From the IMG/VR virus record IMGVR_UViG_3300045303_000172, positions 1 to 64,000 of that record: DNA of 64,000 nt. One strand, 5' to 3'. The notes under the pieces were generated by a model. The model was given only the letters and a program-made list of their open reading frames with translations. It ran no database searches and was not told the origin of the DNA. Source of the DNA: a virus. A program made the position numbers and the translations under genes. Position 1 is the first letter of the stretch; the number at the start of each line of letters is the position of its first letter. Of this stretch, positions 8,289 through 51,530 are shown piece by piece.

Positions 8289-8290
8289 AT

Positions 8291-26597: not shown

Positions 26598-28745
26598 TCA
26601 TGACGTGCTGCTTCTGAGCATTTGCCTAACCTCAGCCGTCAGGCGCGAGAAACAAACCGCGCCGTTTAAGCCTTCGATTCGCATTTCAAAATAAAAATAT
26701 CTACCAGTGTAGAGGAACGTCCAGTTCATCGTCTTGTTCGGCCTCGTGCCCTCCTGCACCTGATCGTATCCCGAGCGATCATTGAGGCATTGCAGCGTCT
26801 TCGGCTTGAGCGGTCTCCACACCAGGGCGCAGCGCCCCGAAGCATCGTTGTTCGAGTCCACCGCGACGGACGAGTAACCAAGGCTCATTTGGAGTGCGGA
26901 GGGAATGACCTGGATAATGTCCGGCACTTCGTATTCAAGTTCGAGCGCACGCTGGTTCTTGTCCTCGCGCGGGAGCCCGTAGTCCTGTGCCCCGGTGCGT
27001 AGGATCGTCTCGTAACCATCCCGTCGCCACTGACCACAAGGCGTGGTCACGAGAGCTACCTCGTGGTAATAGGCACCGCCGACGGCAGAATACTCCTTCA
27101 GGCACCAATCGAGCGACGACGCCATGACGAGCAACCCGGCTTGCGCGCATTCCTGACACAGATCCTCGATCGTCAGATCGCCCAGCAAGGAACAGAGCGA
27201 AACTGCATCAGGCCTCGGCTGCGTGTAATCCTCGATCAATCGCCCGTCCAGGTCCAAGGAGTTGTTCGTCCAGATCGGGATATTGCGATTGGGCAGCACC
27301 GGAGGGTTCACCGGGGCCTCGGCAGGATCACAGAAACCGCCCTGTTTCACGTTGAGCGTTATCAGGTCCGCATTGGCGGCGAGCTCGGCTGGAGTGCAAA
27401 GCCCGCGGGAGAGCAGGAAGTCCAGAAGCGTCCCACGGTCGTCCGGCGCGTGATTTGTGTAAGCAGAGAACCCAGCATCGATGAAATCGCTGGTTTCGTA
27501 GAGCGTGTTCAGGACGAGCGTGCGCGAAGGAAGTGACTCGCCAACCTGCACCCAGCTCAACCAGTATTCCTTGGTCGCCGGGTAGAACGTGGCTACGTGC
27601 CGGTCGCACGCGAGTTCGTCGATGGTGCCGAAAACCTGTGATGTCGCCCGGTGCATCCATTCAACGCGGTCGGGGCGCGGCAGGAAGAGGTTATAAGTGT
27701 AGATGCCGTCCCGCCCAAGGTAGAGATGGTCTTTGCCGGTGGATACGAGCGTATTACGGTAAGCAATACAGCCCTCCCCATTCTCAGGCTCCGAGTAACG
27801 CTGGGTGAAGTTGAACACCTGATCGCCACCAACAGATTCACACATCCAAATGCCAGTGGTTGTGTAAATCAGGAGCACGTCCTGGATGGGGGCCATGCCG
27901 AGAATGCGGCCACCGTAAGGAAGATTCTCAAAGCCAGCCGTCCCGTTCCCGCCTTCAAGTCCAGGCGTGAAGTTGAGTGGCAGCTTGAACCGGGACCAGA
28001 CCACGCGGTATTCGATGCGTTCCCCGTCCATCTCCACGTCGGCTAGGAAGATCGTGCCTTTCCAAGACACAACCACCGCTGCCTTGGTGAGTCCGATGCC
28101 GTTCAGGGATTCGATGGGTAGAACGGCTTGCATGGCGCACCCTTGGATGGCTGAGTCCAGGGTGTAGGCGAGCACCGGGTCGTAGTTGTTCGTGAGAACC
28201 ACCACGTCGTTGACCTGATCCGCCTTCCAGCGTCGATGGAGCCCGTCACCCGGTTCACCACCGTAGGCGTCGGAAATGATCTGCCAGTTGCCCGCGCCTT
28301 CATCGAGCGCGTAAATGCGGTTTTGTGTGCCCGCCAGAAGGTGCCGGACACCCGTCGTGCTGATTGCCTCGAAAAGAAAAGTGACTGGTTGGCGTCCAAT
28401 CGTGCGGATTTGTTGCGAGCCTGAGCAGAACGGACGGCCAGAAGCATCATTGCCAGGAGGGTAAATCGTGATGTCGGATTGCGGAGCATAAGGCACCTGC
28501 TGATTGGCATAGAACGTCTGGAGGCTGAGGAGCTGGTCGTGGAGGTCTTCGTTGTTGTAGATCGGTCGTAGATGCCGGTAACGAGCCCAGCCGGGCCGAC
28601 GGCAGGCTTTGCCTTGGTCAACCACCATGACGTTCTGACGAAAGCGCCAGGCGCCAGCAGGAACAGCGTCAGGGGTCGAGCGCGTGTCCATCGGGCCGCT
28701 GAGCGGCTGGATGTTGACGGCTTGGTATTGGGCTGGCTGCGGCAT
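26598..28745 (-). CDS. large tail protein, nozzle or stabilisation-like
   Basis: 715 residues from ATG 28745. Beta-rich throughout with repeated short strands, e.g. RHLLAGTQNRIYALDEG, DVLLIYTTTGIWMCESVGG and DHLYLGRDGIYTYN, which suggests a beta-propeller. The opening PLSGPMDTRSTPDAVPAGA is of the type seen in podoviral tail nozzle or stabilisation proteins. It may sit at the tail tip between adaptor and fibres. Family assignment is by pattern only. Confidence 0.55.
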   Translation of the reverse strand: MPQPAQYQAVNIQPLSGPMDTRSTPDAVPAGAWRFRQNVMVVDQGKACRRPGWARYRHLRPIYNNEDLHDQLLSLQTFYANQQVPYAPQSDITIYPPGNDASGRPFCSGSQQIRTIGRQPVTFLFEAISTTGVRHLLAGTQNRIYALDEGAGNWQIISDAYGGEPGDGLHRRWKADQVNDVVVLTNNYDPVLAYTLDSAIQGCAMQAVLPIESLNGIGLTKAAVVVSWKGTIFLADVEMDGERIEYRVVWSRFKLPLNFTPGLEGGNGTAGFENLPYGGRILGMAPIQDVLLIYTTTGIWMCESVGGDQVFNFTQRYSEPENGEGCIAYRNTLVSTGKDHLYLGRDGIYTYNLFLPRPDRVEWMHRATSQVFGTIDELACDRHVATFYPATKEYWLSWVQVGESLPSRTLVLNTLYETSDFIDAGFSAYTNHAPDDRGTLLDFLLSRGLCTPAELAANADLITLNVKQGGFCDPAEAPVNPPVLPNRNIPIWTNNSLDLDGRLIEDYTQPRPDAVSLCSLLGDLTIEDLCQECAQAGLLVMASSLDWCLKEYSAVGGAYYHEVALVTTPCGQWRRDGYETILRTGAQDYGLPREDKNQRALELEYEVPDIIQVIPSALQMSLGYSSVAVDSNNDASGRCALVWRPLKPKTLQCLNDRSGYDQVQEGTRPNKTMNWTFLYTGRYFYFEMRIEGLNGAVCFSRLTAEVRQMLRSSTS

Positions 28746-29091: not shown

Positions 29092-29457
29092 TTATCTCCA
29101 AGGGCTTTCGTCACCCAGTTGCGGGAGTAACTCGATGGCGGATTTATAGAGCCATTCCATCAACCTGCAATGTCTCTGCCATGATTCCGCCCCGCACAGA
29201 TGGAGGTATCCTTCTTCGCCGAAATTAACATGCGAGCAACCGTCCCATTTGATCGTTGCGCTCAGGTAAATCTCGCCAGGACCACTGTCGGGATGGTCAA
29301 ACAGTGGCTTGGCCTTGTCGCCCTCTTCATAGCCGACGATTTCACGGACGGAGAACTCTACCCAATGGCTCGCCAGTTCCTCGACGGTAGCTCGAAACTG
29401 CGGGAACCCATCCGGGTCGCACAGATCAAGAGTCTTCTTTTCGGTTGCAGCTTCCAT
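29092..29457 (-). CDS. hypothetical protein in tail region
   Basis: 121 residues from ATG 29457, which overlaps the stop of the fibre gene (TAATG). Acidic alpha/beta composition with a few Cys and His (HVNFGEEGYLHLCGAESW). No family recognised. Confidence 0.5.
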   Translation of the reverse strand: MEAATEKKTLDLCDPDGFPQFRATVEELASHWVEFSVREIVGYEEGDKAKPLFDHPDSGPGEIYLSATIKWDGCSHVNFGEEGYLHLCGAESWQRHCRLMEWLYKSAIELLPQLGDESPWR

Positions 29458-30602
29458 TACGCGACAGGAGTGATCTTCAACGTGCCACCCGCACCCGCTG
29501 TGCCGGTGCCGTTCCAAGCGCCGTTACCGCCTTGATTCCCGCCGCCTGTGTTCTGAGCGCCACCCGTGCCGCCCGTTCCAGGAGGACTGACGACGTTGCC
29601 CTGGGTCCCACCTGTTCCAGCGGTCCCCGGCGTCTGCGTGTCCAATGTGCCGCCTGTTTGGAAGCCGCCAGTGCCCCCTGCTCCACCAGCGCCGTTTTTG
29701 GCCCCGGTCGATCCGGCAGTCCCGCCTCCGCCGCCGTTGGCAATCGTCAGGATCGTGGAAATGCGCTTCACAAGGCTCGGTCCACCATCCACGCCGTTCT
29801 GCGCTTTGCCGCCGCTCAGGTTTCCGGCTGCACCGCCACCGTCCACGAAGACCGAAAGCGTCTCGCCGGGTGTCACAGGGATGAGAGTGGCCTTGAGGTA
29901 TTCACCAGAGCCTCCACCACCACCACCGTAAAAGTCCGCGCCAGCAGGACAGAATGAGCAAGCACTTGAACCGCCACCAGCGCCAGCGCCCCACGCTTCG
30001 ACCGTGATCGTCGCGGCCCCGGCTGGAACGATGTAGCTGCCATTGCCGTGGAAGGTGATTTCGACGAGTCCGCCGCCACCGCCAGTATCGCGGTAACCGC
30101 TGTCTCCAGTAGAGAATCCGCTGGAATCGGTCGCAGTCTTGGCTTTGAGGAAATACCAGTAAACCTGCCCGTCCACCGCCGTCGCGTCGTCGTAGGTCGT
30201 GACCGGTGCCGTGGTTGTGCCGAGCAACGTCGCTGAGGAAGAGTCGTTCGTTGCCCCGCGATAGACTTCGTAGAATGTCGCTCCGCCCACCGGATTCCAA
30301 ACAATGTGAACGTGATCCGTAAACGTTCCGTCGCTGGCTGAAACGCCGCCAGGTGGAGTAAGCTGGCCGACGGTCACGCCGATCGCCGTTTTGAAGTCGT
30401 CCGACACAGTGCCGTCCGCGTTGAACGCCCAGCTATACCACTTGTAGAAAAGAACCGGGAACTCAACAAGAGCCGACAGTAACTTTTGGCAAATGTTGCT
30501 GTTGCTCGCCGGGATTACTGCTTTGAATTGGTCCGGGGTTACGGGGTTGCTAGGCATACTCGCGTTTTGCGCGACACTAAGCCCGAGGCTGTTGAGAGGC
30601 AA
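29457..30602 (-). CDS. tail fibre with fibronectin III and glycine-rich domain
   Basis: 381 residues. Residues about 82-167 form a fibronectin type III-like domain (ASDGTFTDHVHIVWNPVGGA, then YEVYRGATND). From about 180 to the end the protein is very Gly-rich with GGGG and GTGGT motifs, like polyglycine II sandwich adhesins at the tips of some phage long tail fibres. This suggests receptor binding. Gly-rich tips are often the variable host-range determinant. Confidence 0.65.
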   Translation of the reverse strand: MPLNSLGLSVAQNASMPSNPVTPDQFKAVIPASNSNICQKLLSALVEFPVLFYKWYSWAFNADGTVSDDFKTAIGVTVGQLTPPGGVSASDGTFTDHVHIVWNPVGGATFYEVYRGATNDSSSATLLGTTTAPVTTYDDATAVDGQVYWYFLKAKTATDSSGFSTGDSGYRDTGGGGGLVEITFHGNGSYIVPAGAATITVEAWGAGAGGGSSACSFCPAGADFYGGGGGGSGEYLKATLIPVTPGETLSVFVDGGGAAGNLSGGKAQNGVDGGPSLVKRISTILTIANGGGGGTAGSTGAKNGAGGAGGTGGFQTGGTLDTQTPGTAGTGGTQGNVVSPPGTGGTGGAQNTGGGNQGGNGAWNGTGTAGAGGTLKITPVA

Positions 30603-30616
30603 TCACCAAAGCGGCG

Positions 30617-31120
30617 TCACTTCCTCTGCGGGCCGAATCGTAGAAACATCGCCGCTTTCTCCAATCCCTTGTGATCTTCCATCTGCACCAGCGTTTTGTT
30701 TTGGATGCTCGCCAGCGTGCCGAACTGGATGCCCTCTCCAAATGCTTGCATCAGCGCTTGGCGGATGTAGGGCAGCGCCATGACGGCGTTGGTGTCCGTT
30801 GGTTTCAACATCTCAGGAGGCAGCTTCACCCAGCCATTTGATAAAGCTCCACTGGCCTTGAACCATTTATTTGTCCCCTCCTCCACAATCGCGCCAGGAT
30901 CGGCAGATATTACGCCTTCTGGACTTTTGGCAACGCTCAGGAGTTTGATTGGTCCACGCGTCGATGAACCCGGCATGAGCGACGGGCTCTCGGCGTCCAG
31001 TGCGGCTGGCAGGGATGCGATAGCGACTTTGTTCGTGTCGCCCCTTCCGAGTTGGGCAGCGATGGGCGCGAGGATAATTCCGAGGCAGGCAGCGAGAGCT
31101 AGGGTGTGTGCGGTTTTCAT
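30617..31120 (-). CDS. secreted or membrane-anchored hypothetical protein
   Basis: 167 residues with a signal-peptide-like start (MKTAHTLALAACLGIILAPI), then a polar body. The segment VMALPYIRQALMQAFGEGIQ may be amphipathic. It lies between the fibre and the glycan gene cluster. Function unknown; it may be exported in the host. Confidence 0.5.
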   Translation of the reverse strand: MKTAHTLALAACLGIILAPIAAQLGRGDTNKVAIASLPAALDAESPSLMPGSSTRGPIKLLSVAKSPEGVISADPGAIVEEGTNKWFKASGALSNGWVKLPPEMLKPTDTNAVMALPYIRQALMQAFGEGIQFGTLASIQNKTLVQMEDHKGLEKAAMFLRFGPQRK

Positions 31121-31136
31121 GGGTGATCTTTGAGTT

Positions 31137-31796
31137 TTAACTTTGATAATGTGTAGCGAGTAATTCCTTAATCGCCTCTGATTTCGACTTTTCCTTATGA
31201 AAGTTCGTCATCGCGTCCAGTGAACCATTGGAGTAATGCGCCAGCGGCACCGTGCCGAAGTTGGGAAACCCGTAGGTGATGCACAGGACGGCAATGCGGT
31301 AGAGGGTCGGCTGGCGCTTCCGAAGAACGCGCATGTCGCAGAGGTGTGGTTGCCCCTGCCACTCGTCATCAGGCTCGGGCACGTAGGCAAGAATCGTATC
31401 AACGATCTTGGAGAAGTCCTCGCGTCGGCCGGCGATGAAGCCGGGGCCACCCGCGCCGTCACCGGACACCGGGAGGGCGCCGAAGTCCCTCGGCGGAAAA
31501 CGACGAATCGGGAACACGTCGAAATCGGCCACAACTGCCGGTTCTTCCACCTGCGAGAAAGCGAGCCACCGCTCGAAGTTGACTGCTTCAAACCCACGTG
31601 AGCCGTGAACACACGGAAAGGACTCAATTTTCTGCTTCATCGCTTCCCAGCGCGGGTCTTTCATGGCGTCGGCTTGGCCGAGGATAGCAGGCTCCCAGCC
31701 TTCCAGCCGCCAGCGTTCTTTCCATAGCTCAGCTACAGCAGCTTGTGCCGTCCAGCCGATGTCCACGAAATAGGAGTAGATGCGGTTGACGATCAT
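31137..31796 (-). CDS. GT-A-like glycosyltransferase candidate
   Basis: 219 residues. A VVADFDVFPIRR segment near residue 87 supplies a DxD metal/sugar-nucleotide site, and the sequence around it (FERWLAFSQVEE) fits a GT-A fold. Part of the 31137-36566 glycan cluster; its ATG overlaps the next upstream stop. The donor and acceptor are unknown. Confidence 0.55.
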   Translation of the reverse strand: MIVNRIYSYFVDIGWTAQAAVAELWKERWRLEGWEPAILGQADAMKDPRWEAMKQKIESFPCVHGSRGFEAVNFERWLAFSQVEEPAVVADFDVFPIRRFPPRDFGALPVSGDGAGGPGFIAGRREDFSKIVDTILAYVPEPDDEWQGQPHLCDMRVLRKRQPTLYRIAVLCITYGFPNFGTVPLAHYSNGSLDAMTNFHKEKSKSEAIKELLATHYQS

Positions 31797-32443
31797 CGCG
31801 TGATCAGGTCCAGCGTTTGTTTGTCCTTCACCCCATGAAAAGCTGTCGTGCCGCGTTTGATGGCGGCTTCCAACTCCGGGTAATCGGCTTCCGTTATGGT
31901 GCCGCGGCTAAAGCCAGGTGGCTGATAAGGGATTATGGGCACCCGCGCAAGTTTGGCGATAGCAGCCAGCCAGCGGTCGGCGTGGCCTTCCTCGGTCACT
32001 TCCCGGTAAGCGGAAGCTGTATCGTTCATTCGCACCAGAGAAGCATGGTCGATCAGCCATGGCGGATTGGGATAAACCTCAGCCGAGAACCGTTTCGGCT
32101 CTTTGTTTTCAAACAGGATGCCCGCGAGCCCGTTACCTGAGACTGTTGGCCCTGAGGTCAGAAAGGAGTCATACTCAAAGATCAGGTGATACCTGACCTG
32201 TTTGGCGAGCGAAAGGTGTTTCAGTAGCCAGCGCAGCCGCTTGAGTGATTCCAGGCCCGAATGACTGGCCTTTCCAATGCGGGCATCCGTCCAGATGGGA
32301 TACCTCAATAGAAGCGGGTCGTCCTCGGGCGACAGTGTGATCCAATGCCCCTTGGATACTACAAGCGATTCCCAGAGCGCAATATGCCGGTTGAACGTTT
32401 CCCGGACCGCGCCGTGACCAATAATGGTGAGCGTCATTCTCAT
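31793..32443 (-). CDS. glycosyltransferase-like protein
   Basis: 216 residues from ATG 32443. FEYDSFL near residue 89 is a DxD-like site, and a C-terminal FHGVKD is a frequent ending of small GT-A enzymes that handle polysaccharide sugars. Tight overlaps with both neighbours place it in the glycan operon. Substrate unknown. Confidence 0.55.
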   Translation of the reverse strand: MRMTLTIIGHGAVRETFNRHIALWESLVVSKGHWITLSPEDDPLLLRYPIWTDARIGKASHSGLESLKRLRWLLKHLSLAKQVRYHLIFEYDSFLTSGPTVSGNGLAGILFENKEPKRFSAEVYPNPPWLIDHASLVRMNDTASAYREVTEEGHADRWLAAIAKLARVPIIPYQPPGFSRGTITEADYPELEAAIKRGTTAFHGVKDKQTLDLITR

Positions 32444-33048
32444 GGCAGCGCGTATCCAACGTTCTCCGCGTCACCCCAAACCAGCCCGTAACCTCGAGAT
32501 TGCAGGCATCGTTCGATTCTGTCGGAGCCATCTTCCTTGTTCACTTCGGCCACGATCAGCGTCGGGCACATGTTGGTTGGCATCGACTCCACGATGAGCG
32601 AGTCAAGCCCTTCGGTGTCGATCTTGAGCAGGTCGAAGCGGTCAGGCAGGCCGAGTGACCCAATGCGGACCCCGTTCACGGTCTTCGCGGTGAAATTGCT
32701 GAATCCGTGCCTTTTGACCCAGCGCAAATCCATCGAACTCCAGGTTGGCGCGGGTTTGATTTCGTAGAACGTGACAGGACCATCCTTTTCGCACACAGCC
32801 GACTCCACCAGCCTCAGTCTGGGCGGGTTTATGCCGTAGTTCTCGACCAACTCAGCGAACGCCCGCGAGTCCGCTTCCACCATGAAGCCGGACCAACCGC
32901 TCAGCCACAGTGCCCGCGTGTTGCTGGCGTCGAAACCGTTCAATGCGCCGATGTCCACGAAGAAGCCGTCGGTCTTGCCCTTGAAGAACGCGAGGATTTG
33001 AGCCTCACAATCGGCCGGCCACTGAGATTTTGAAGCGGCGGTTAGCAT
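32440..33048 (-). CDS. FkbM-family methyltransferase
   Basis: 202 residues from ATG 33048, which overlaps the preceding gene's stop. An open frame continues upstream but only inside that gene. SAM-binding signature GFFVDIGALNGFDASNTRAL near residues 28-47 and the FkbM motif LLKIDTEGLDSLIVES near 145. FkbM enzymes O-methylate sugars or small molecules, which fits capping or decorating a glycan in this cluster. Confidence 0.75.
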   Translation of the reverse strand: MLTAASKSQWPADCEAQILAFFKGKTDGFFVDIGALNGFDASNTRALWLSGWSGFMVEADSRAFAELVENYGINPPRLRLVESAVCEKDGPVTFYEIKPAPTWSSMDLRWVKRHGFSNFTAKTVNGVRIGSLGLPDRFDLLKIDTEGLDSLIVESMPTNMCPTLIVAEVNKEDGSDRIERCLQSRGYGLVWGDAENVGYALP

Positions 33049-34004
33049 TTGATGAGCGGCACGACTCCAACCTTTGAAGCTTTGTCCACCATGGCTTCGT
33101 CCCTCACCCAATCGAAAAAGTTCCTCAGTCTGGTCGGGAAGAACTTGTTTTCCTGGAGTCCTTTCCAGCCCTCGACGGCGTTCTTGTATCCATAGTAGTC
33201 CCTTTTGAACGCAGCCTGCTTCTCCGTCGCGTAAGCAAAATGCTGGAACCGGCCAATGAGGTCCGTCTCCGCGTGCGTGAAAGGCCGCATCTTGGCGAGG
33301 TCCATGCCATTGCGAGCGAGAACAGGGGGCTCGTGGCTCACCCAATGGTCGCCGGGTTGGTAATTCCACACCCGTAGCCACTCGTAGCCGAGATTGTTCC
33401 CATAGGTGTTCAGCGAAGTGGTGACGATGTCAGGCCCGACGAAATACCAGCATTTGAAGTAAGCAGCCGTCCGAGTTGGGTAAGCGAGGAACATCTGTCG
33501 GACGGCAGTGATCTGCTCAGGAGTCCAGCACTCATCATTATCAACCTCGAATAAAAGGCACGGCTCGTTGATCCATTTCAACGGTTCGCGGACCATCTCT
33601 ATCTTTCCGTCCCACTTCTTCCCGCAGCACTTTGAGGAAACGCGCACACGCCCATTCTCGCCATGCAGTCCTTGAATGCCAGCGATGTAGCGCATTGTGC
33701 CGTCGTCAGCGCCAGGGATGGGTGCTCTGCCGCCAGCAGGAACGCTCCAGGCTGTATCGTGCTTGAGGTCGGCTATGCCTTCAATTATGTGCCACGTCCA
33801 GCGGAACGGTAATCGCTTAAAAACTTCCAAATGATGCGTGATGAAAGGCATCCCATTCCGCACGATCGTAAAAAAGACAACCGGCAGTTTCTCCATGGCG
33901 TAAAAAGTCTCGGGTGGAAGTTTCGCAAAAGCATCTCGATATTCCTTGGACGTGATGCGCTTTGACCCGTTTTCTAGGATTTCAGTCTCAATGCCGGTGT
34001 TCAC
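33042..34004 (-). CDS. family 2-like glycosyltransferase
   Basis: 320 residues from a GTG at 34004 that overlaps the upstream TGA. VVFFTIVRNGMPFITHHLEV near residue 42 resembles the N-terminal strand of GT2-type enzymes, followed later by CLLFEVDNDECW with a DND metal site near residue 154. C-terminal half is Trp/Tyr-rich. Member of the glycan cluster; sugar specificity cannot be read. Confidence 0.6.
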   Translation of the reverse strand: MNTGIETEILENGSKRITSKEYRDAFAKLPPETFYAMEKLPVVFFTIVRNGMPFITHHLEVFKRLPFRWTWHIIEGIADLKHDTAWSVPAGGRAPIPGADDGTMRYIAGIQGLHGENGRVRVSSKCCGKKWDGKIEMVREPLKWINEPCLLFEVDNDECWTPEQITAVRQMFLAYPTRTAAYFKCWYFVGPDIVTTSLNTYGNNLGYEWLRVWNYQPGDHWVSHEPPVLARNGMDLAKMRPFTHAETDLIGRFQHFAYATEKQAAFKRDYYGYKNAVEGWKGLQENKFFPTRLRNFFDWVRDEAMVDKASKVGVVPLIKC

Positions 34005-35506
34005 AGGAGCTTAAAACCGTTCATTGCCGCTGTCCCTTGGCCATGCCAGCCGAAATTCGAGCAAAAATAGCGGCCTTCACAGGAAAAGGCTGCGGCCACG
34101 CCCTCAGGCGCGAACCGTATGCCCATGGCTTCGAGTTTCGGCCTCAGCACCCGGCACATATAAATGTCCGACATCGCGGCCATGTCATCGTTGGGGTCCG
34201 TGAGCGACGAAACCGCCTGTGCGAATCGCTTGCTGAGCAACGCGAACCCGAGGTTGCCAACGCAGTTGTCCTTTGTGCAGGGCGGCAGGGCTTTGATGTG
34301 CGGAGCCCACGGAATCGAGCACTGATCGAACGGCCATGGCCACGGCGCGCCGATGTAATCGTATTGCAGCCATTCTGGGTTCCACGCCGCTGGGTTCGCT
34401 ATCCGAGCATCCCACTCGACATGGAGGCAATGACTCGTCTCAAAATGCTTGTGCAATTCGCACGTCAGGAACTTCTCGCGGTCAGCCCGGTTGCCGCCCT
34501 GGATGATCGGTTTGATGCGGACCCCGCGATGATCGCCGCCAGGCAGTTGATTGCCCGGTTTGCAGATCAACACGACTTCCGGCACCTGCACCATGCGTTG
34601 CGAGAACCAAAGAGCTTGCAGCGTCCGCGCCGGGGTGAAGTTATCTACGCCAATGATCGTCACCGGCAATTCCAGGCGTCCAGTTATCACCTTCTGATGA
34701 TGTGAGATCGCTCTTTGGACGGCAGCATTGATCTCGTTGCGGCGGTGCTGGTATTCACCGTAACGCATCGAAAGGACGATGTTGCCACCCCGAAGCTTCG
34801 GGCCGCACCAAAGGTCCGTTGTGCGCCCGGTTGGGCTATCGGCGTAATCCCGCAGCAGGGCAATGGTGGGTGTCTTGCTGGCAGCGGCGAGGTGCAAGGT
34901 GCTTGTGTCCACCGTCACAAGGCAAATCGCGTTGTCGATCAGTCCGAGCAAATCGAAAATCTTCGCCGCTTTGAACCGGCGCATGTCCACGACAACCGCC
35001 TCGTTCACCCAGCGCGTTTGCAGTTCGGTCAAAAGCTGGTCCTCGGCATGGAACTTCCCGGAGATACCACGGGTGTTGACCAGAATGTAAGGTCGCCCCC
35101 GCAGCCGCAGGGATTCCATGAGCTTGTGCTCGCGCTCATGGGAACGCCGGTCGATGACGAGCTTCAACTCCGGGTCGCTCCAGCGGTCGAGGAAACCACA
35201 GTTGTGCCACTGGTCCATGTTGAAAGCCTCACAGACACGCTGACGAGCGCGGGAACTGTCGGCAACCTGGGCGACGATGACGCGCTCGAACTTCCCGTTG
35301 AGCGTCACGGCAGCAGTGTGCGGCTGCATCATGTCACCTTCCCAGCGGACGGCTTCGACGTAGGAGACACCTTCCATCAAGTCCATGAACTCGCGGTGAA
35401 CGAGCATGGCGACTTTCCCGCCTTCCTCCTTGGCGATGGCGTGTGCCACCGGGAGAAGGTTCAGGATGTCGCCGTAGCGGCCGAGCTGGACAAGGCAGGT
35501 CTTCAC
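34001..35506 (-). CDS. two-domain glycosyltransferase: GT9-like plus DUF5672-like
   Basis: 501 residues from a GTG at 35506 overlapping the upstream TGA. The N-terminal half opens CLVQLGRYGDILNLLPVAHA, the hallmark of GT9 heptosyltransferase-type enzymes, with VDTSTLHLAAASKTPTIALL near 225. The C-terminal half has HVEWDARIANPAAWNPEWLQ, YDYIGAPWPW and VGNLGFALLSKRF, the DUF5672 pattern. A fusion could add two sugars in sequence. It probably acts on lipopolysaccharide-like or virion glycans. Confidence 0.75.
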   Translation of the reverse strand: MKTCLVQLGRYGDILNLLPVAHAIAKEEGGKVAMLVHREFMDLMEGVSYVEAVRWEGDMMQPHTAAVTLNGKFERVIVAQVADSSRARQRVCEAFNMDQWHNCGFLDRWSDPELKLVIDRRSHEREHKLMESLRLRGRPYILVNTRGISGKFHAEDQLLTELQTRWVNEAVVVDMRRFKAAKIFDLLGLIDNAICLVTVDTSTLHLAAASKTPTIALLRDYADSPTGRTTDLWCGPKLRGGNIVLSMRYGEYQHRRNEINAAVQRAISHHQKVITGRLELPVTIIGVDNFTPARTLQALWFSQRMVQVPEVVLICKPGNQLPGGDHRGVRIKPIIQGGNRADREKFLTCELHKHFETSHCLHVEWDARIANPAAWNPEWLQYDYIGAPWPWPFDQCSIPWAPHIKALPPCTKDNCVGNLGFALLSKRFAQAVSSLTDPNDDMAAMSDIYMCRVLRPKLEAMGIRFAPEGVAAAFSCEGRYFCSNFGWHGQGTAAMNGFKLL

Positions 35507-35880
35507 TTCTGATTCGTGCCTTCGACGCCGCGCGCCATTCGATCTCGCGTCCGCTTCTGGAGCCATTGCAGCCCGGTTTCGATGTGGGTCAACGCGATGG
35601 TGTTCTCGCGGGATTTGAACGGGCCTTCACCGAACATCCGAAGCCGGTCAATTACGACGGCGAGGAGTGCTTCCTGCGAGATGCCGTTGAACCCCGCCTC
35701 TTTGACGGGGCCGTTTTGAAATGAGATGCGCCAGCAGTTTACTACTCCTGGCTTGCTCGCTTCCGGTGCGAGCATGATTTCGTACTCGTGGCAAGCTCCG
35801 CCCTGCCCCGGCTCGTCCAGGACATTGATTTCGATAGCTTCATTTAAGCCGCTGACCTTGTGGTCTGTGAGATTTCGCAT
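35503..35880 (-). CDS. Tad1/Acb2-like anti-defence protein candidate
   Basis: 125 residues from ATG 35880, overlapping both neighbours (37 bp upstream, 4 bp downstream). Residues 52-67 read ISFQNGPVKEAGFNGI, and 88-112 form a helical hairpin FKSRENTIALTHIETGLQWL. The tail ends RMARGVEGTNQK. These are features I associate with the Acb2/Tad1 hairpin domain, whose members bind and sequester cyclic nucleotide or gcADPR signals made by CBASS and Thoeris. The ligand cannot be predicted. The position inside a glycan cluster is unusual. Confidence 0.6.
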   Translation of the reverse strand: MRNLTDHKVSGLNEAIEINVLDEPGQGGACHEYEIMLAPEASKPGVVNCWRISFQNGPVKEAGFNGISQEALLAVVIDRLRMFGEGPFKSRENTIALTHIETGLQWLQKRTRDRMARGVEGTNQK

Positions 35881-36566
35881 AGGTCGATGAGGTTTATTGT
35901 TCCGTCGGTCACGCTTTGAAATCCATCTCGCTCAAATCTGCAATTTGCGAGGCTCAGTGAGGTTTCCTGCACGATGGGCTTCTTCAACCCCTCCGCAATA
36001 GCGCACGGGCAGCTCTGGTTTCCAACGAACAAATCCGCGCCCGCAATCACTTCTGCCACTTCGAGCAGGTTCGCCGTTTTGAGCCGTCGCACGTAGCCGA
36101 ACTGGGCGGTAAAGTTCCAATACTCTTCGAGCGTGCCGACAAACGCCGTTTGGTCACGGTATTTGTCCACGACCGCTTGCCACGGAAACAGCGGGTTACG
36201 ATACCTCGCTGTCCGGTTGAAGATCACGCGGGCGACTCGCCGGGGATTTGGAACCGTGAGCCACGGAAGGTTGATCACGTCGTCAGGCAATCCGAACGCT
36301 CGGCAATGGCGCGAGGCGATGTTGTCCTCTTGGGTGCCGACACCGCGAAAGGCGTCGAGGTTGTGGGAGATGTATTCGCCGTCGTGGAGTCCAACGAAGT
36401 TCAGGTAAGGCTGAGTGTTGAGCAGATCGAAAATGTTCCAGAGATTTGGCGGCTGACGCGTCCACGGTGCCGTAGTGAGGTAAAGATCACCGCCACCCAT
36501 GAGGCGAATGCAGGGTAAGGACCAAATTAAATCACCAGCATCCCCGGAATGTGAGAAGGACCGCAT
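35844..36566 (-). CDS. GT-B/GT9-like glycosyltransferase
   Basis: 240 residues from ATG 36566, overlapping the upstream stop (TAATG). SHSGDAGDLIWSLPCIRLMG near the start and ADLFVGNQSCPCAIAEGLKK near 175-195 follow the GT9 layout. First glycan gene of the cluster in transcription order. Substrate unknown. Confidence 0.6.
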   Translation of the reverse strand: MRSFSHSGDAGDLIWSLPCIRLMGGGDLYLTTAPWTRQPPNLWNIFDLLNTQPYLNFVGLHDGEYISHNLDAFRGVGTQEDNIASRHCRAFGLPDDVINLPWLTVPNPRRVARVIFNRTARYRNPLFPWQAVVDKYRDQTAFVGTLEEYWNFTAQFGYVRRLKTANLLEVAEVIAGADLFVGNQSCPCAIAEGLKKPIVQETSLSLANCRFERDGFQSVTDGTINLIDLCEISQTTRSAA

Positions 36567-36955
36567 TACTTCCCCTTCGCCGAACTTGGTTTGATTATTT
36601 CCTCGATCTTGTCGGCAAGTTCCTTGGCAAGATCAGGCGCAGAATTCCCATACTGGTAACTTCGGAAAGCACTGACTATCCCAGCTGCCATGTCTCGAAG
36701 TTGGGCGTTTCCGGCAGCTTCGATGGTGCGAAAGTCTTCGTTAAAAACCGCCCTTTCAAGATCAAATCCGAGCGCTTTGGCAACAGTTTCGCCGCCTTGT
36801 GCGGCATGGATTTTATCATTAGGTTCAGCACCGTAGGTCGTCGTATGGAGTCTTCCGTGCTCCCGATTCCACGCACAGATAATCACAATCTGTTTATCGA
36901 ACGCCCGTGCGATCTTTCGCGCTTCCTCGACAGGGATTGAAAGGTAAGGATTCAC
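36566..36955 (-). CDS. conserved small phage protein (HxTTYG type)
   Basis: 129 residues from a GTG overlapping the upstream TGA. The core VIICAWNREHGRLHTTTYGA followed by IHAAQGGETVAKALGF recalls a common phage family with an HVTTYG motif. Function unknown. It sits with the small wHTH gene just ahead of the glycan cluster. Confidence 0.5.
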   Translation of the reverse strand: MNPYLSIPVEEARKIARAFDKQIVIICAWNREHGRLHTTTYGAEPNDKIHAAQGGETVAKALGFDLERAVFNEDFRTIEAAGNAQLRDMAAGIVSAFRSYQYGNSAPDLAKELADKIEEIIKPSSAKGK

Positions 36956-37215
36956 TTTGATTTGCCCTTCGCCGGAGTCGGCCAGTAGCGCCAGCGGTTT
37001 CCAATTCCGGGCTCGCGCCTCACAAGCCCCAAAGCCCTCAGCCGCTCCAGTCGATTATTGACCGCAGAAACGCCCGCACGCGAATGAACCATCGCGTCGT
37101 ATTCAGGGGCGGTGCGGCCTGGATAGCGCGTGACCAGCGAGAGTTCCCCAAATAGAGCAGGCGTCAAAACCAAATGAGGTTCTGCACCGTTACGTTTGCA
37201 GGTTGGGCAGGTCAC
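36952..37215 (-). CDS. small winged-helix-like protein
   Basis: 87 residues from GTG 37215. An N-terminal CPTCKRNG knuckle, then a predicted helix-turn-helix with wing: NRLERLRALGLVRREPGIGN ending RWRYWPTP. It resembles small MarR/ArsR-like DNA-binding modules. It could regulate the downstream glycan genes or be structural; unproven. Confidence 0.5.
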   Translation of the reverse strand: MTCPTCKRNGAEPHLVLTPALFGELSLVTRYPGRTAPEYDAMVHSRAGVSAVNNRLERLRALGLVRREPGIGNRWRYWPTPAKGKSK

Positions 37216-37259
37216 GCGGCGAACTCTTCACCAAAAGGCGTGAGACTGCAAGAAGTATT

Positions 37260-38948
37260 TTAAGCGGGCAACGGATTCTCTTGGTCGAAGTCGTCGAAGA
37301 ACAGCACGATGCTCGTGTCCAAGTTCTCCAACTTCACGTCGTCAATGAGGGGGCCGACTGTTCGCACCCAAGCGCTAATCGGTTCTGGCTGTAGCGCCTT
37401 GATGATAATCGGTGCCGATGTCGAACCCGGTGACGAGAAATCGAAGATGTATTCCGTGAGCGGCTGCTGCCAGTTCGCAACCATAACAGTTTGCACGAGC
37501 AGAGTGCCGATGGTGATCTTGATGCCCATCGGCGGTCCGGCGTAAATCAGGTTGCCGCTGACTTTAAGCGAGAATCGGTAGCGCCCAGGGCCAAGTGTGA
37601 ACGTGCGCTTGGTTTCAATTGTGCCCAGCGTGTTCTTCTCAGCGGGTCGCGGGTGCAACAGATCGGTGCCTACCATGTCCACATACATCCCGTGCCCAGG
37701 CTGGAGCGGCCACAAGTCGATGCCGATCAAGTCCACGAACCCGCGTGTGACATTCCAGTTGATGAACCCGTTGTAGTCCAATTGATCGCGGTAACGCACA
37801 GGGGCAGGCGGGCCTACCACAGGCGCGACGTAGTAGACGCACCCGGCATTCTGAATCGCGCACAAGCTGCTCAGGCAGGCGGAAAAGGCATTGGCCAAAT
37901 CGTTCAGGTCTTCGACCCCGAAGAACAAGTTGCAGGTGACGAGCGCACGGACGTAATCCCAAGTCGTGCCGCCACTCGGGAGAATGGAGCACGGATGGTA
38001 AAAGAACGGCGGACCCGTTACGATCCCGGCAATCTCGATGTTGGCGGCGACAAGTTCAGCAGCGACGACGGGCGGGTCTGGCTGGCAGAACACTTCGTAA
38101 CCGAGCCCGATGTAAACGACCAGCTTGCGGGTGTTCGCTCGCCCGTGATCAATCAACTCCTGGTGCGCTCGCGCCAAGCCGGCGCCGATGCCGGTAGCGC
38201 ACTCGGTATTGTGCTGACCTGGTGCGGTGTCGTAGTAGCAGTTGCCTGTGTGCACATTGTCGGTCGCGGCGAGGATCGCGCTCGGAACATGGCTCAAGCG
38301 CATGTGCAGCGTCGAATCCGGCGTGTAAGGCGTCACTTGGCCTTCCCGGTAGATGCCAGCGCAGGACACAACGGCAATCTGATCTTTGCCGTCCGTGAGG
38401 TAGGCGCTTGATACCAAAGCCGTGGCTGCTCGCTTGGCCAGTTCGAGGATCGTCAATCCGCCCGGTGTCGGGTTGCCATCGGTCGTCATCTTGTCGGCCA
38501 TCCCTGCCGAACGGTCAAACACAAGGACGATATCGAGCCCAGCCTGAACGCAGTGAGCGATCACGTCGAGTTGCGCGATGTCCACCAAACCCTTGTAACG
38601 CGCCTGGACATTGGTGCTGCCGACAGCCAACCCTGCGGCAAGCCCAGTCGGGTCCACGGTCGCAATGCTCGTGTCGGTCGTCGTCCAGGTCGAACCGTCC
38701 GTCACGTCTTTGGTCAGCCCGTTGGAAAAGACCAACTGCGCGGCAAATGGAACGGCACCCCCGACGTCCACTTCGCCAATGTCAGGAACGACGTGCAAGG
38801 AAACGATGCTGGCCGCGCCGGGACACGTCTCGGGATGATTAGCCGCCCATTCCAGGTCGAGACAGCGCGGGTCGATGCCGGCACACTTCCCGGCCACCGT
38901 TGACGGCGGAACGACGCAGGGCGCATTGCTGAGATCGTTGAAATTCAT
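37260..38948 (-). CDS. BIG2 plus VWA surface protein
   Basis: 562 residues from ATG 38948, overlapping the upstream stop. Residues about 45-130 are a BIG2 immunoglobulin-like domain (LVFSNGLTKDVTDGSTWTTT). About 135-370 is a VWA domain with LDIVLVFDRSAGMADKM near 138, where the DxSxS motif reads DRSAG, losing the last Ser. The C-terminal 200 residues are beta-rich and may be a carbohydrate-binding jelly roll. The combination suggests a virion surface adhesin with altered metal binding. Confidence 0.65.
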   Translation of the reverse strand: MNFNDLSNAPCVVPPSTVAGKCAGIDPRCLDLEWAANHPETCPGAASIVSLHVVPDIGEVDVGGAVPFAAQLVFSNGLTKDVTDGSTWTTTDTSIATVDPTGLAAGLAVGSTNVQARYKGLVDIAQLDVIAHCVQAGLDIVLVFDRSAGMADKMTTDGNPTPGGLTILELAKRAATALVSSAYLTDGKDQIAVVSCAGIYREGQVTPYTPDSTLHMRLSHVPSAILAATDNVHTGNCYYDTAPGQHNTECATGIGAGLARAHQELIDHGRANTRKLVVYIGLGYEVFCQPDPPVVAAELVAANIEIAGIVTGPPFFYHPCSILPSGGTTWDYVRALVTCNLFFGVEDLNDLANAFSACLSSLCAIQNAGCVYYVAPVVGPPAPVRYRDQLDYNGFINWNVTRGFVDLIGIDLWPLQPGHGMYVDMVGTDLLHPRPAEKNTLGTIETKRTFTLGPGRYRFSLKVSGNLIYAGPPMGIKITIGTLLVQTVMVANWQQPLTEYIFDFSSPGSTSAPIIIKALQPEPISAWVRTVGPLIDDVKLENLDTSIVLFFDDFDQENPLPA

Positions 38949-40558
38949 TTAGTCAGCGCCAAGGTGTCGATGATTGACCCGGCGACATTGAAGAACTCCA
39001 GCGTCAGCGTCGTGCAGGTCGCCGTGAGCTTGATCGCCCCGAAAGAGGCGTCATACCGGACTAGGCTGCCTGGCGCGATGGTGGGACCGTAGGGCACGAG
39101 AGCCGCCCCGCCTGCCCCGCAGATGGCGTAGTTCTGGTCATCCACCGAAAGCCGCTCGTAATGGTGCTCGTGCCCGTTCATCACAATATCAACGCCCTTG
39201 ACCCAATCCAGAACAGGTAATGGCTCATGGGCGTACGGGCTCGCCTTGGCCGGGTGATGGACGACAGCGGCTTTCCACGGTGACAAGGACGTGGCCACGC
39301 GGTTCCTGAACCAAGAGGCCTGTGTGCTCAGGGCATCGTTGCCAGCCGGTTCAGTCGTCGGGTCCATGGCGGTGTTGATGCCGTCATTGAGGATAAAGAA
39401 ATGAATCGGCCCGATTACGATGTCATAGAAACGGTCGTTGCTCGGCGTGAGCCCACTGAAATAGGCGAGATACTCGGCCAGCCGGTCGATGTCGTGGTTG
39501 CCGAGCGCAGGCCAGAACATATTGGCCGTCGCGTCCGTTTCGCCTGCCCAGAGCGGTTCGGAGCCCGGATACGGGTACATGAACTTCCGGTAGAACGCGC
39601 CGACAGCCTGGTCGTAGGTGAGTCCGCCGTTGTCAGGGTAATTATTGTCTCCGAGCGTCACGACACCAGCCGGGTTCCAACTCTTGACGAGGGTCGCCAC
39701 TGCCCGCTCGTTGTCGTCGCCGCTGCCGTAATCGCCAAAAGCAGCAACCACAACCGGCACTTCCGCTGTCTCTGGGTTGTTGTCCTCCAGGCGATGAAAC
39801 CAAAGGTATTCGCGCTCGGCGGGGCACGATTCCGCCTTGGGCAAACGGTTCTCCTGGTCGCAGTCGTAGATCAGATCGGCGCGGGCATCGGCGAAAGCCT
39901 GTTGGAACTCCTTTTTGCCGGCAAAATCGCGTTCGAAGTCTCGAGAGAACTCCGCCTGCACGTAGAGTTTGATCGTGCGCTTCAAGTCCTGCTCGTCCGG
40001 GAACAGGTCAGTGTCCGCGAACTTCCGCTTGAGCCCGTCCCATTCGACGACGACAGATTCGAGGCTCTGGATCCAGGGTGCCACGTACATCCGCTCCCGG
40101 TCCCATGAGTATTGCCCAACGATGGCGCGGCCAAAGGGCGAGTCTGTAGTCGCGTCGGCGAAGCGGAAGCCCATCGGTAGCTCGGGCATCCCGATGTTGG
40201 CCGGCGGAGTCACGCGTTCCAGGAACTTCCGGGACCAACAATAAATCTGCTCGATGGTGGCGGGCGTCAGCGTCACCGGGTCGCAGAAATCGCCTTGGAA
40301 CGTGCGGACCCTGCGGATCTTGCCGCGGGGCTTATCGAACACCGTCAGCCCACATTGGAAGTAAGTGGCGCATTGGGCGAAGACATCGACGTGCCACGAT
40401 TGCAGGCAGGTGACGTACCGCTGGATGTCGATAAAGGCGTCCTCGAAGCTTTTGTCGATGGGTGAAACGAGGTTTTCCGGGACACCGTTCGGCCAGATCA
40501 GAGCTTTCAGCTCAGTCTTGAGTGCTCCGAAGGAGATTTTAGGGCCGAGGTCGTACAC
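38945..40558 (-). CDS. virion protein with metallophosphoesterase domain
   Basis: 537 residues from GTG 40558. The first 260 residues are non-catalytic and tail-adaptor-like, with Trp/Tyr-rich repeats. The C-terminal part is a calcineurin-like phosphoesterase with all core motifs: AAFGDYGSGDD, VTLGDNNYPDNGG, ALGNHDID, VVHHPAKA and VMNGHEHHYER. The active site appears intact for two metals. An enzyme in the tail or head could act on host surface phosphates; this is inferred from its neighbours. Confidence 0.75.
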   Translation of the reverse strand: MYDLGPKISFGALKTELKALIWPNGVPENLVSPIDKSFEDAFIDIQRYVTCLQSWHVDVFAQCATYFQCGLTVFDKPRGKIRRVRTFQGDFCDPVTLTPATIEQIYCWSRKFLERVTPPANIGMPELPMGFRFADATTDSPFGRAIVGQYSWDRERMYVAPWIQSLESVVVEWDGLKRKFADTDLFPDEQDLKRTIKLYVQAEFSRDFERDFAGKKEFQQAFADARADLIYDCDQENRLPKAESCPAEREYLWFHRLEDNNPETAEVPVVVAAFGDYGSGDDNERAVATLVKSWNPAGVVTLGDNNYPDNGGLTYDQAVGAFYRKFMYPYPGSEPLWAGETDATANMFWPALGNHDIDRLAEYLAYFSGLTPSNDRFYDIVIGPIHFFILNDGINTAMDPTTEPAGNDALSTQASWFRNRVATSLSPWKAAVVHHPAKASPYAHEPLPVLDWVKGVDIVMNGHEHHYERLSVDDQNYAICGAGGAALVPYGPTIAPGSLVRYDASFGAIKLTATCTTLTLEFFNVAGSIIDTLALTK

Positions 40559-40911: not shown

Positions 40912-41325
40912 CTACGGACGTCGCCCGACGTTCGGGGGCTTGACGGGAGGTTTGGCCGCTGCCGTGGTTGGTGCCGGTGGTGGAGTTGGTTTAGGCACCG
41001 CCGCAGCCGCCGCAGCCGCCCCCGGTTCGCCTGGGTTGTGCCGCTTGAGCATGGTGTCCTGTGCTATGCCCCCGCCAATTTCCTGTCGCCAACCGGGATT
41101 TGATGGCATCGACATTAATTTTTTTTTATCACCTTGATACTCAGTTTCCGTGACGGAGAAAACGCCGCCCCGGTGTTCCTTCTCCAGCTTCGTCAGGGCG
41201 TCGATTTCAGCCTGGTTCTCGGTCTGATAGAAGCCAATCCGACCGTCGCGAGGCTCGAATTGGATATGGGAACCGTCGGGGAGGTAGATGGGTGTTTTGG
41301 GGACTTCTTTTTTCCAAAAGGTCAT
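40912..41325 (-). CDS. hypothetical protein with Ala/Pro-rich tail
   Basis: 137 residues. N-terminal 60 residues are beta-like (TPIYLPDGSHIQFEPRDGRI). The C-terminal 40 are Ala/Pro low-complexity with AAAAAAAVPKPTPPP. Possibly a head decoration or connector component by location; no family recognised. Confidence 0.45.
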   Translation of the reverse strand: MTFWKKEVPKTPIYLPDGSHIQFEPRDGRIGFYQTENQAEIDALTKLEKEHRGGVFSVTETEYQGDKKKLMSMPSNPGWRQEIGGGIAQDTMLKRHNPGEPGAAAAAAAVPKPTPPPAPTTAAAKPPVKPPNVGRRP

Positions 41326-41854: not shown

Positions 41855-43585
41855 TTAGGCCGTGTAAGTGATGCTGGAGAAGTTCTCCGTCCAATCGCTG
41901 TTGAGCGGGCACTCTACGATCATCGTCTGAATCTCGCTCGTCGCGGTCGTCCGAATCGTCGGGTTCTCCATGACGCAGGCGAAACTGGCGTCCAATTTGG
42001 CCAACTGTTCGATTTGTCCAGTCTCATACACCTTGCGGTTGGACCCGAGCACGGCGGGATAAATCGAGCCGCCCTTGCCGATGTCCAAGGCGAGCAGGAA
42101 GCGCCCGCGCGAGGATTGCTGGCCGGTCGATAGGTTGGTGAACGTGTTCAGCAGGTCGTCGAAGAACTCGTGCGTGATGATGTTCACAGTGACGCCCAGC
42201 GGGCGATAGAGACGGAAGCTTCTCCATTGGAAACCCCATTCGTTCTGTCCTTCACTCATCGTGTACGGCATCGCGTGTTGGCCGGAATCGCCAGCGACAT
42301 TGATGCGGACGATATCGCCCAGCTTGCCCTTCGAGTAAGCGATGAACGCCACCATGAACTGATCGCTCGTGATGGAATCGCAGTAAACGTCGATGCTGCG
42401 CGACGGGCGCCCTTGCGAGGTGCGCGCGCGGTAAACGTCGTAAATCCGTTCCTCGGCCCATGTCCGAATGTTGAGCGCCTGGCCCTGCAAATCGTTCACC
42501 CGGTTGCACGCCTGCATCTGCGGGTAAATGCCGATCATGTTCGCCCGGTAAGCCTGGAGCAGTCCGCCCGTTCCCGGGTCGATGGAAGCACCGCTCAAAC
42601 TGAGAATCTGCGGCAAGCTGGTCCAGAACGGCGAACCTTCCAACCGTTGCGCGAGCGCGTAGGGACGCCCGAAGAACCACGTGTTGACCATCTGTTTCTG
42701 GTCGTTCAATTCGTCCTGGCGATTGCGTTCGGCGAGTGGGATATCCTGGAACTGCGCGAACCACTCGTTGTCTTCCATGAGTTTCTGAAAAACTTCCATG
42801 TAACTCGAATCGACCCGGCGCATCCGCCGGCGGGGTTGGTACCAATAGGGGACGAACTTGGTCGGGTTAACGTTGACTGGGTTGTAGCAGTACTTCTCGA
42901 CGTCGTTGATGTTGTTCACGCCGACGAGGACAACGCCAGTTACCGGCGTCTCGTCTACCGTGGTCGTGTCGGAGCTGTTCAAGTCGTAGAGCCCGATGTC
43001 CACGTAATCGCCGCCACTGGAAACGACAGCTTCGACGACGCCCCACTGGCCCATGAGCGAGCTGCCTCCGCCCGACAGGTTCAAAATGTAAATCTGATGC
43101 TTCGGCAGGAAATACTTGGCATCGAGCGGCACGCCGTAGCCTGCGACCACGCGGATAACGCGGTCCACACCGCTGACAGTGCTCAAGGGCCCGGTGGTGC
43201 CTGGCGTGTAAGAGCCAGCGGCAAAGCCTGTAACGATCACCCAGTAGTCCTGGTTCACGACCGACATCTGCCGGCCCATGATGAACGGCTGGATGAGGGA
43301 AGAACCTTTGTCGCGTTTGACGGTTTGGAGCAGTTTGCCCATGCCGGGCCGGTTGCTCGACATGATCCAGTCGTAAAGACCGAACCGGCGCACGCCGCAT
43401 GCGGCCATTTCAAACTGGGTCCGCAGCATGGCCGTCATTTCGTGCCACTGCGTACCGTCGGTGAAGAGGGCTTTGACCTGAGTCGGCGTCAGCCCTTTGA
43501 TCGTGGATTTCGTGAGGGACCCCGTGGTGTCATAGTTGTTGGTGATGGCTATGTCACACGCGGCCGCAAAAGGAGTAGCTGGCAT
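41855..43585 (-). CDS. probable major capsid protein
   Basis: 576 residues from ATG 43585. Not recognised by clear sequence motifs; the call rests on position (portal, small protein, Ala/Lys-rich scaffold-like protein, then this) and on size and beta content. Local features are RRRMRRVDSSYMEVFQKLME near residue 258 and a C-terminal FACVMENPTIRTTATSEIQT. It is larger than the usual 300-450 residues, so it could carry an inserted surface domain. Confidence 0.65.
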   Translation of the reverse strand: MPATPFAAACDIAITNNYDTTGSLTKSTIKGLTPTQVKALFTDGTQWHEMTAMLRTQFEMAACGVRRFGLYDWIMSSNRPGMGKLLQTVKRDKGSSLIQPFIMGRQMSVVNQDYWVIVTGFAAGSYTPGTTGPLSTVSGVDRVIRVVAGYGVPLDAKYFLPKHQIYILNLSGGGSSLMGQWGVVEAVVSSGGDYVDIGLYDLNSSDTTTVDETPVTGVVLVGVNNINDVEKYCYNPVNVNPTKFVPYWYQPRRRMRRVDSSYMEVFQKLMEDNEWFAQFQDIPLAERNRQDELNDQKQMVNTWFFGRPYALAQRLEGSPFWTSLPQILSLSGASIDPGTGGLLQAYRANMIGIYPQMQACNRVNDLQGQALNIRTWAEERIYDVYRARTSQGRPSRSIDVYCDSITSDQFMVAFIAYSKGKLGDIVRINVAGDSGQHAMPYTMSEGQNEWGFQWRSFRLYRPLGVTVNIITHEFFDDLLNTFTNLSTGQQSSRGRFLLALDIGKGGSIYPAVLGSNRKVYETGQIEQLAKLDASFACVMENPTIRTTATSEIQTMIVECPLNSDWTENFSSITYTA

Positions 43586-43656: not shown

Positions 43657-45015
43657 CTAAGTGGCGAACAAGGACTCAGTTATCTTTTTCGCATCCGAAG
43701 GGTTGATGATGGCATCCGCTCCGCCACGGGTGCCGTCACTTGCGCCACCCGAAGTGTTCGGAAACTCCTTTTTACCCTTGTCCTTCGGCGGTTCCTTGGT
43801 CTTTTCCTCTTTCGGCTTTGGCGTCCCATTTCCTGCCGGATCGGCTGCGGGTTTGCCTGCTTTTGAGCGATACAAGGTCAAATCTTCCCTGGCTTTAGCA
43901 GAAAAATCGCGCACGAGCAGCGCCCGGACGGCGTTTGGCTCCATCCAGATCGTCCAGTGCTTGGACTTCTGTTCGGGCGTCATTTTGTTGAACTCTTCGA
44001 TGGGCGCGAGCACGCGGCCATTGGACAGGCGATCCTTTTCCGGGAGCGCCAACAACTCATTCTCGTACCCGTAGATCGTTTGCATCAGGGTAACGTGCAG
44101 CGGGTTATTGTCGCTGAATTGGTAGTTCAAGCCTGGCGTGAATGCTTTAGTCAGTTCCGCCGTCATTGCCGCCAGCGCCGGGACATACGGCCGGATGGCC
44201 GCATCAGCCAGCGGGTCTTCCTCGCGCAGTTTCTTAGGCTCGATCTTCGCCAGTTCGCCGTCCGTCTCTTTCAAAAGCTCCTTGGTCACATCGTCCTGGT
44301 GATTGGCCAGCTTGGCTGTGACGGCTTTAACGGCTTCGGCGTGCATCCGTTTGGCCTCGCCGTGCGACAGAACCTTCTCGGCTTCCTGCCGTGCTTCCAG
44401 CCGGTTCTGGGCGCGGTCGAAAGCGGCTTGGTCGGCCTCGGTCTGAATCGGGTCGTTGGCCTTGTAAAAGTCGGCGTGCGCTTCGTTGGTCGGGTCGTAG
44501 GATTCACCGGGGTTGGCCTTCTCCCAACGCTCGCGGTAATTCTTCTCGGCGGGAATGAAAGCGTCGAACCGTTTCAGCAGCCGGCCGAACTCCGGTTGTT
44601 CCTGCGCCATGAACGCGAGCACGTCCCGGTTGCGCTGGTCATCAGCAGAAAGCTCTGGCTCCTTGGTCGCCTCCGCCTTGGCTGGTTTCATCCGGTCAGC
44701 CACGCGATCGGCAATCTCGTCAGCCGTCGGGGTCTTGGCTGGCTTCGCGGGTGCGGCGGCAGCAGCTTCCGCGGCTTTCTTGTCCGCTTCCACTTTGTCC
44801 GCAGCGGCTTTGTCGTCGGCAGCTTTCTTATCGGCAGCCGCCTTGGTTTCCTCGGCGGCTTTGGCAGCGGCTTCGGCATCAGCCTTTTCTTTGGCCTTTT
44901 CCTCGTCGGTCTTGGTGGGTGCGCCGAAAAGAACTTCGCTCGCTTTGGAGGCGAGCTCGTTAATTTCCTTCTCTGTCAGTTGGTCTTCTTTGGGTTCTGC
45001 GGTGGCTGTGGCCAT
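43657..45015 (-). CDS. scaffold-like protein
   Basis: 452 residues from ATG 45015. Residues 1-100 are extremely rich in Ala, Lys and Asp/Glu (KADAEAAAKAAEETKAAADK), a charged helical region typical of scaffolding proteins. The middle has EQPEFGRLLKRFDAFIPAEK, and the C-terminus is Lys/Pro-rich. It lies between portal and capsid, the usual place for a scaffold. Confidence 0.7.
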   Translation of the reverse strand: MATATAEPKEDQLTEKEINELASKASEVLFGAPTKTDEEKAKEKADAEAAAKAAEETKAAADKKAADDKAAADKVEADKKAAEAAAAAPAKPAKTPTADEIADRVADRMKPAKAEATKEPELSADDQRNRDVLAFMAQEQPEFGRLLKRFDAFIPAEKNYRERWEKANPGESYDPTNEAHADFYKANDPIQTEADQAAFDRAQNRLEARQEAEKVLSHGEAKRMHAEAVKAVTAKLANHQDDVTKELLKETDGELAKIEPKKLREEDPLADAAIRPYVPALAAMTAELTKAFTPGLNYQFSDNNPLHVTLMQTIYGYENELLALPEKDRLSNGRVLAPIEEFNKMTPEQKSKHWTIWMEPNAVRALLVRDFSAKAREDLTLYRSKAGKPAADPAGNGTPKPKEEKTKEPPKDKGKKEFPNTSGGASDGTRGGADAIINPSDAKKITESLFAT

Positions 45016-45021
45016 AGGGTG

Positions 45022-45342
45022 CTACGTGATTTCTGCAATTTTGGGTGGTGGTTCCAGTGAAATGGTAGCGTCGATCAAATTCCCGGCTCCTGCGTGGAAT
45101 TGGTCGAAGACGGCGAGCGCGTGAACGTAGACCAACGCTTCCCCGGCTTGTTCGATGGCGTCCTGGTCCTGGCGGTTCTTCTCCCCCTTCGATTCGATGA
45201 AGTTCTGCCCAACCTTGGCCTGCAGGTCCGCAAGGTTGCTGACCAAGACACGGCGGTAAAGTTCGGCAGCTTCGCCGGTGAGCCAGTTCTGGATCTTGAG
45301 AACCTGCTCTCTGGTGAGTGGGGTAAGAGTGACGTGGATCAA
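45022..45342 (-). CDS. small head-region protein
   Basis: 106 residues starting at TTG 45342, which overlaps the portal TGA (TTGA). Helical middle (LTREQVLKIQNWLTGEAAEL). No family recognised. Position between portal and scaffold suggests a head-assembly accessory. Confidence 0.5.
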   Translation of the reverse strand: MIHVTLTPLTREQVLKIQNWLTGEAAELYRRVLVSNLADLQAKVGQNFIESKGEKNRQDQDAIEQAGEALVYVHALAVFDQFHAGAGNLIDATISLEPPPKIAEIT

Positions 45343-48030: not shown

Positions 48031-48228
48031 TTACTCCCTAAGAAACTGCTGGCAAACCAATTCGGCGATGGTAGAGTGTGGACGCATTGCTAGCTCTGAA
48101 CACAACTTTTTAACATCTTCCGCCCGCCCGGCGTCGGACTTCATTCGGAGGTTTGGCAATGCAACCGGGCGCGGCGGGGGTTTTTGAAAGCGCGGAATGA
48201 ATGAGCGCACTTGCCTCGATATCTTCAC
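48031..48228 (-). CDS. possible small helical protein
   Basis: 65 residues; the coding-like part is the last 37 (DAGRAEDVKKLCSELAMRPH, then STIAELVCQQFLRE), which can also start at ATG 48144. The longer version overlaps the start of the divergent cytosine methyltransferase. The helix pattern is reminiscent of small RHH-like proteins. No good ribosome site seen. Confidence 0.35.
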   Translation of the reverse strand: MKISRQVRSFIPRFQKPPPRPVALPNLRMKSDAGRAEDVKKLCSELAMRPHSTIAELVCQQFLRE

Positions 48229-51525: not shown

Positions 51526-51530
51526 ACACA

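Follow-up and report, generated by a model that had tools for sequence, protein, structure and literature searches.

The gene at positions 35503-35880 (minus strand) of the window, i.e., the whole 64,000-nucleotide stretch analyzed here (positions 1 to 64,000 of IMG/VR virus record IMGVR_UViG_3300045303_000172), is best explained as coding for a Tad1-family sponge for host immune messengers, carried as a passenger in an 8.3-kb glycosyltransferase cassette within the late structural operon (probability about 0.88).

Assignment of the gene to the Tad1 family

The open reading frame comprises 125 codons and starts with an ATG at position 35880, which is favored as the true start since the N-terminal motif M-R-x-[LI]-T-x-H is conserved across relatives in the family alignment. 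Its product contains an N-terminal β-strand region (approximately residues 1-56) and a C-terminal helical hairpin (residues 69-82 and 91-117). The initial annotation, made from the sequence before any database search, had recognized in it a helical-hairpin pattern, RENxxALTxxExxLxWL, and residues 91-107 (RENTIALTHIETGLQWL) fit it; the stretch ISFQNGPVKE, described there as the start of the protein, is also present, in the middle of the protein (residues 52-61). The overlap with glycosyltransferase genes was likewise found as described: the upstream glycosyltransferase-like gene (35844-36566) overlaps tad1 by 37 nt, and the downstream one by 64 nt if its longest reading frame is considered or by 4 nt (GTGA) with the likelier GTG start at 35506.

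Sequence comparisons were carried out with the protein and with family profiles. Solved Tad1 chains were the top matches among PDB sequences (E = 4e-20, residues 20-125), and their E value reached about 1e-31 when a 76-sequence family profile was used. The best PHROG match was PHROG 2428 (residues 18-125, E = 4e-32). The sole Pfam match was to PF24729 (Acb2_Tad1_hairpin; E = 1e-4), at 22.8 bits and thus below the curated gathering cut-off of 27 bits. Since this model matches 59 of the 76 family members at E ≤ 1e-3, PF24729 is at its edge for the subfamily of the window protein; apart from its score, all comparisons with the family were strong. Homologs were identified in 124 phage records, including Rhizobium and Agrobacterium phages (47-48%, full length) and the annotated Tad1 of SBSphiJ7 (51% over 74 aa), and searches with the family alignment located relatives in 257 IMG/VR stretches and at 46 loci in bacterial and archaeal genome contigs. 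Scans of the viral and genome collections with the single protein gave no relatives of the window tad1, because the exact peptide patterns used were too specific. Among the matches listed, the closest relatives (approximately 64% identity) are at L014 and at L093, a locus in a Verrucomicrobiia MAG; assigning a host from the latter was judged too weak, since only one further window gene has a homolog there. Two relatives show other arrangements: Burkholderia phage FLC9 gp131 (L003:3374-4390, 338 aa) has a C-terminal Tad1 domain and an N-terminus that by eye resembles a cyclophilin-type peptidyl-prolyl isomerase, and in Aeromonas phage AerS_266 the homolog (L011:1845-2704) is annotated as anti-Thoeris and directly followed by a gene annotated as an anti-CBASS nuclease. 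Judged by these comparisons, in which the similarity greatly exceeds chance expectation, Tad1 is a real and widespread family to which the window gene belongs. This also indicates that PHROG 2428, where no function is annotated, corresponds to the Tad1 family.

Predicted fold, pocket residues, and position 84

An AF2 monomer model of the window protein (pLDDT 91, pTM 0.79) contains strands at residues 2-4, 16-20, 32-37, and 48-54, followed by the two long helices of the hairpin. Foldseek aligned this model with cbTad1 in complex with 1''-2' gcADPR (7uaw; TM 0.86, rmsd 2.0), which is 37% identical to the window protein, and all 20 matches with E ≤ 0.001 were Tad1 chains, the next match having E = 0.3. 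The protein is therefore full-length homologous (about 125 aa) to the characterized Tad1 proteins, namely cbTad1 (7uav/7uaw/8smd/8kbe/8kbf), cmTad1 (8kbb-8kbd), and SBSphiJ7 Tad1, with which it shares the predicted N-terminal strands, the two-helix hairpin, and conserved residues F83, N93, R110, and R114. These four residues, which represent cbTad1 pocket residues and conserved hairpin arginines, are identical to the aligned cbTad1 ones and almost invariant in 130 relatives; F54, Q55, and G66 are also conserved in the 130 relatives and in cbTad1. In cbTad1 numbering, which is lower by one because of a tag offset, F83 and N93 correspond to F82 and N92, which are reportedly ligand contacts (Leavitt et al. 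2022).

The full-length homology, the predicted fold, and the conserved pocket-region residues support the initial proposal of a sponge candidate. That proposal had been made dependent on a family match in a profile search, and such a match was found. The candidate had been named Tad1/Acb2-like, and only the first half of this name was retained. The hairpin family PF24729 is common to Tad1 and Acb2 (anti-CBASS 2), but Acb2 is helical and lacks the N-terminal β domain (PMC12043709), which is predicted in the window protein. No Acb2 chain appeared among its PDB sequence matches up to E = 10, nor by fold at E ≤ 0.001. Based on these results, membership of Acb2 was rejected.

The main peculiarity of the window protein is residue 84. 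In the relatives this position is occupied by Gln (127 of 130) or Asn (3 of 130), and Gly occurs only in the window protein, replacing the Gln of cbTad1; it is encoded by GGT, so that at least two base changes separate it from a Gln or Asn codon. Since residue 84 leaves a column otherwise restricted to Gln and Asn, ligand binding could be altered or lost. The first possibility is that the Tad1 fold is maintained with the loop after helix 1 (M82-F83-G84) changed, so that the preferred messenger differs from that of cbTad1 and cmTad1. G84 lies immediately after F83, the equivalent of the presumed ligand contact F82, and M82 occupies a position where most relatives have Ser, Gly, or Cys; however, the remaining near-invariant positions are kept with the exception of A103, and a single residue cannot establish a new ligand. 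We consider such a shift in specificity unlikely. The initial annotation had suggested that the ligand may be new, and G84 provides a single hint in this direction; the fuller version of this idea, a sponge whose altered loop binds a messenger foreign to characterized Tad1 proteins from within a late glycosylation cassette, is quite improbable. The second possibility, a copy that has decayed or taken on another role and, although still folding, no longer binds messengers, could draw on the unique G84 together with A103G, the two departures (Q84G and A103G) from the 36 columns conserved at ≥90%. However, the reading frame is intact and the other 34 columns are kept, a number of departures inside the range of the relatives. 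Accordingly, the window Tad1 does not look degraded, and we regard loss of binding as very unlikely.

Genomic context: the variable accessory slot

The tad1 gene lies in an 8.3-kb accessory block (30603-38944, minus strand) inserted between two conserved genes of the structural operon. All the genes of the block described below are on the minus strand. The first one (37260-38948) codes for a 562-aa Ig-like (BIG2-type) protein with a weak match to phrog_1280 (Ig domain) and, by eye, a vWA-like region. It is followed by two small reading frames without PHROG matches, of 87 aa (36952-37215) and 129 aa (36566-36955), and by the gene immediately upstream of tad1 (240 aa), a weak GT9/GT-B-like frame with a homolog in L024, in which the PF01075 stretch (35970-36071) scores 16.5 bits, below the cut-off of 22. 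Downstream of tad1, the glycosyltransferase gene 34001-35506, with a homolog in L012/L013, codes for a GT9-like N-terminal half (PF01075, 23.1 bits, cut-off 22) and a DUF5672 domain (40 bits). Next are a 320-aa frame (33042-34004) without Pfam or PHROGs family matches and an FkbM-type methyltransferase gene (32440-33381, PF05050), whose true start is probably internal, since its longest reading frame overlaps the adjoining gene.

In related viral contigs, a conserved gene order includes homologs of the window genes 26598-28745, 38945-40558, 40912-41325, 41855-43585, 43657-45015, 45339-47720, and 49511-51058 (the last one with a weak terminase match). In contig L141 only 3 bp separate the homolog of 38945-40558, ending at 9284, from that of 29457-30602, beginning at 9288; in L147/L148 the slot measures 6 bp (9266 to 9273), and in L142, L145, and L146 it is occupied by other genes. 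In the window it extends over 8342 bp and contains the tad1, glycosyltransferase, and methyltransferase genes. These results indicated that this part of the late operon is an accessory slot whose content varies. No tad1 gene was found in eight related contigs that share the operon, although several of these contigs are fragmentary. The portal-like protein gave no relatives when scanned for, and a sigma-70 promoter scan gave one site, 5.1 being expected. In the product of the structural-operon gene 38945-40558 (minus strand; L141 counterpart, 7665-9284), residues 275-467 form a calcineurin-like metallophosphoesterase domain (PF00149); this domain looks variable, since the L142-L149 homologs align only over the N-terminal half.

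This location differs from that of tad1 in SBSphiJ7, BSP38, and OLIVR5, in or near replication genes. Since tad1 is one of the minus-strand genes of the structural operon and its reading frame overlaps those of its neighbors, its late co-expression with surface-function genes, also put forward in the initial annotation, is plausible, and the anatomy of the block supports its co-transcription with the glycan genes. A functional tie is a different question. Could the window protein assist in making or modifying glycans, for instance as a sugar-nucleotide binder, rather than act against host defense? Glycosyltransferase genes flank it on both sides with overlapping frames, and in its nearest relatives, L012/L013, a GT9-like frame of 811 aa lies 0.9 kb downstream of tad1, with HTH-like and HNH-like frames (by eye) in between. 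However, homologs of the two window glycosyltransferase genes occur at only 4 of 80 tad1 loci, and in most relatives the neighbors are unrelated, the usual ones being head, terminase, portal, ParB, primase, and methyltransferase genes. When the downstream glycosyltransferase (34001-35506) was itself used in a scan, no relatives of it turned up. A general linkage between tad1 and glycosyltransferases was therefore rejected, a functional tie is unsupported because so few relatives show the linkage, and a role in glycan metabolism is extremely unlikely. The tad1 and glycosyltransferase genes are best read as shared cargo of the accessory slot.

The position amid structural genes would also be consistent with a Tad1 that is packaged in the virion and injected to act immediately after DNA entry. 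This is the case of phiKZ gp184 (8y6v_I; L006:2572-3264), a protein annotated as structural and shown to be an injected virion protein, i.e., a packaged sponge (PMC10449902), whose C-terminal domain (residues 113-227 of 230 by the family profile) is homologous to the window protein. Nevertheless, gp184 carries some 100 additional N-terminal residues that have no counterpart in the window protein, and the gene of the latter belongs to an accessory insertion outside the conserved virion module, which makes packaging highly improbable.

Three other observations concern the rest of the window. Gene 7254-8288 (plus strand) codes for an adenylosuccinate-synthetase-like protein whose best match is PHROG 1211 ('2-aminooxy adenylosuccinate synthetase', E = 2e-54); since it retains the Asp of GDE-S-KG near the N-terminus, it looks PurA-like rather than clearly PurZ, and we do not claim a 2-aminoadenine genome for this phage. 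Gene 14575-23829 (minus strand) codes for a giant protein of 3084 aa with an InPase-type domain (PF18823), similar to DarB-like antirestriction and virion proteins, and probably polyvalent and possibly injected. Two DNA methyltransferase genes (48197-49351 and 51411-52571, plus strand), located on either side of the weak terminase match, may participate in restriction evasion.

Proposed function and implications

In the Tad1 hexamer, six pockets accept gcADPR and cyclic dinucleotides, and two additional sites accept cyclic trinucleotides; the ligands are sequestered and not cleaved (reviewed in PMC12043709). By analogy with the family, from which its ligands, effect on defense, and expression timing are likewise extrapolated, the window Tad1 would assemble as a hexamer (trimer of dimers) that tightly binds 1''-2' and 1''-3' gcADPR, the products of Thoeris TIR proteins, in uncleaved form, removing them by stoichiometric sequestration. 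Cyclic tri- and dinucleotides of CBASS would probably be bound too. Depletion of these messengers would keep ThsA- or Cap-type effectors off during phage replication.

The window gene is thus an additional member of the Tad1 family, with one unexplained residue and a location that is unusual but explicable. In this way, a phage gene that lacked annotation gains a probable function, which can be extended to PHROG 2428, and the family appears to be common among uncultivated phages. If G84 does shift specificity, a messenger outside the known set of gcADPR, cyclic dinucleotides, and cyclic trinucleotides would be implied. The variable slot offers a concrete place in which to seek more counter-defense genes in related phages.
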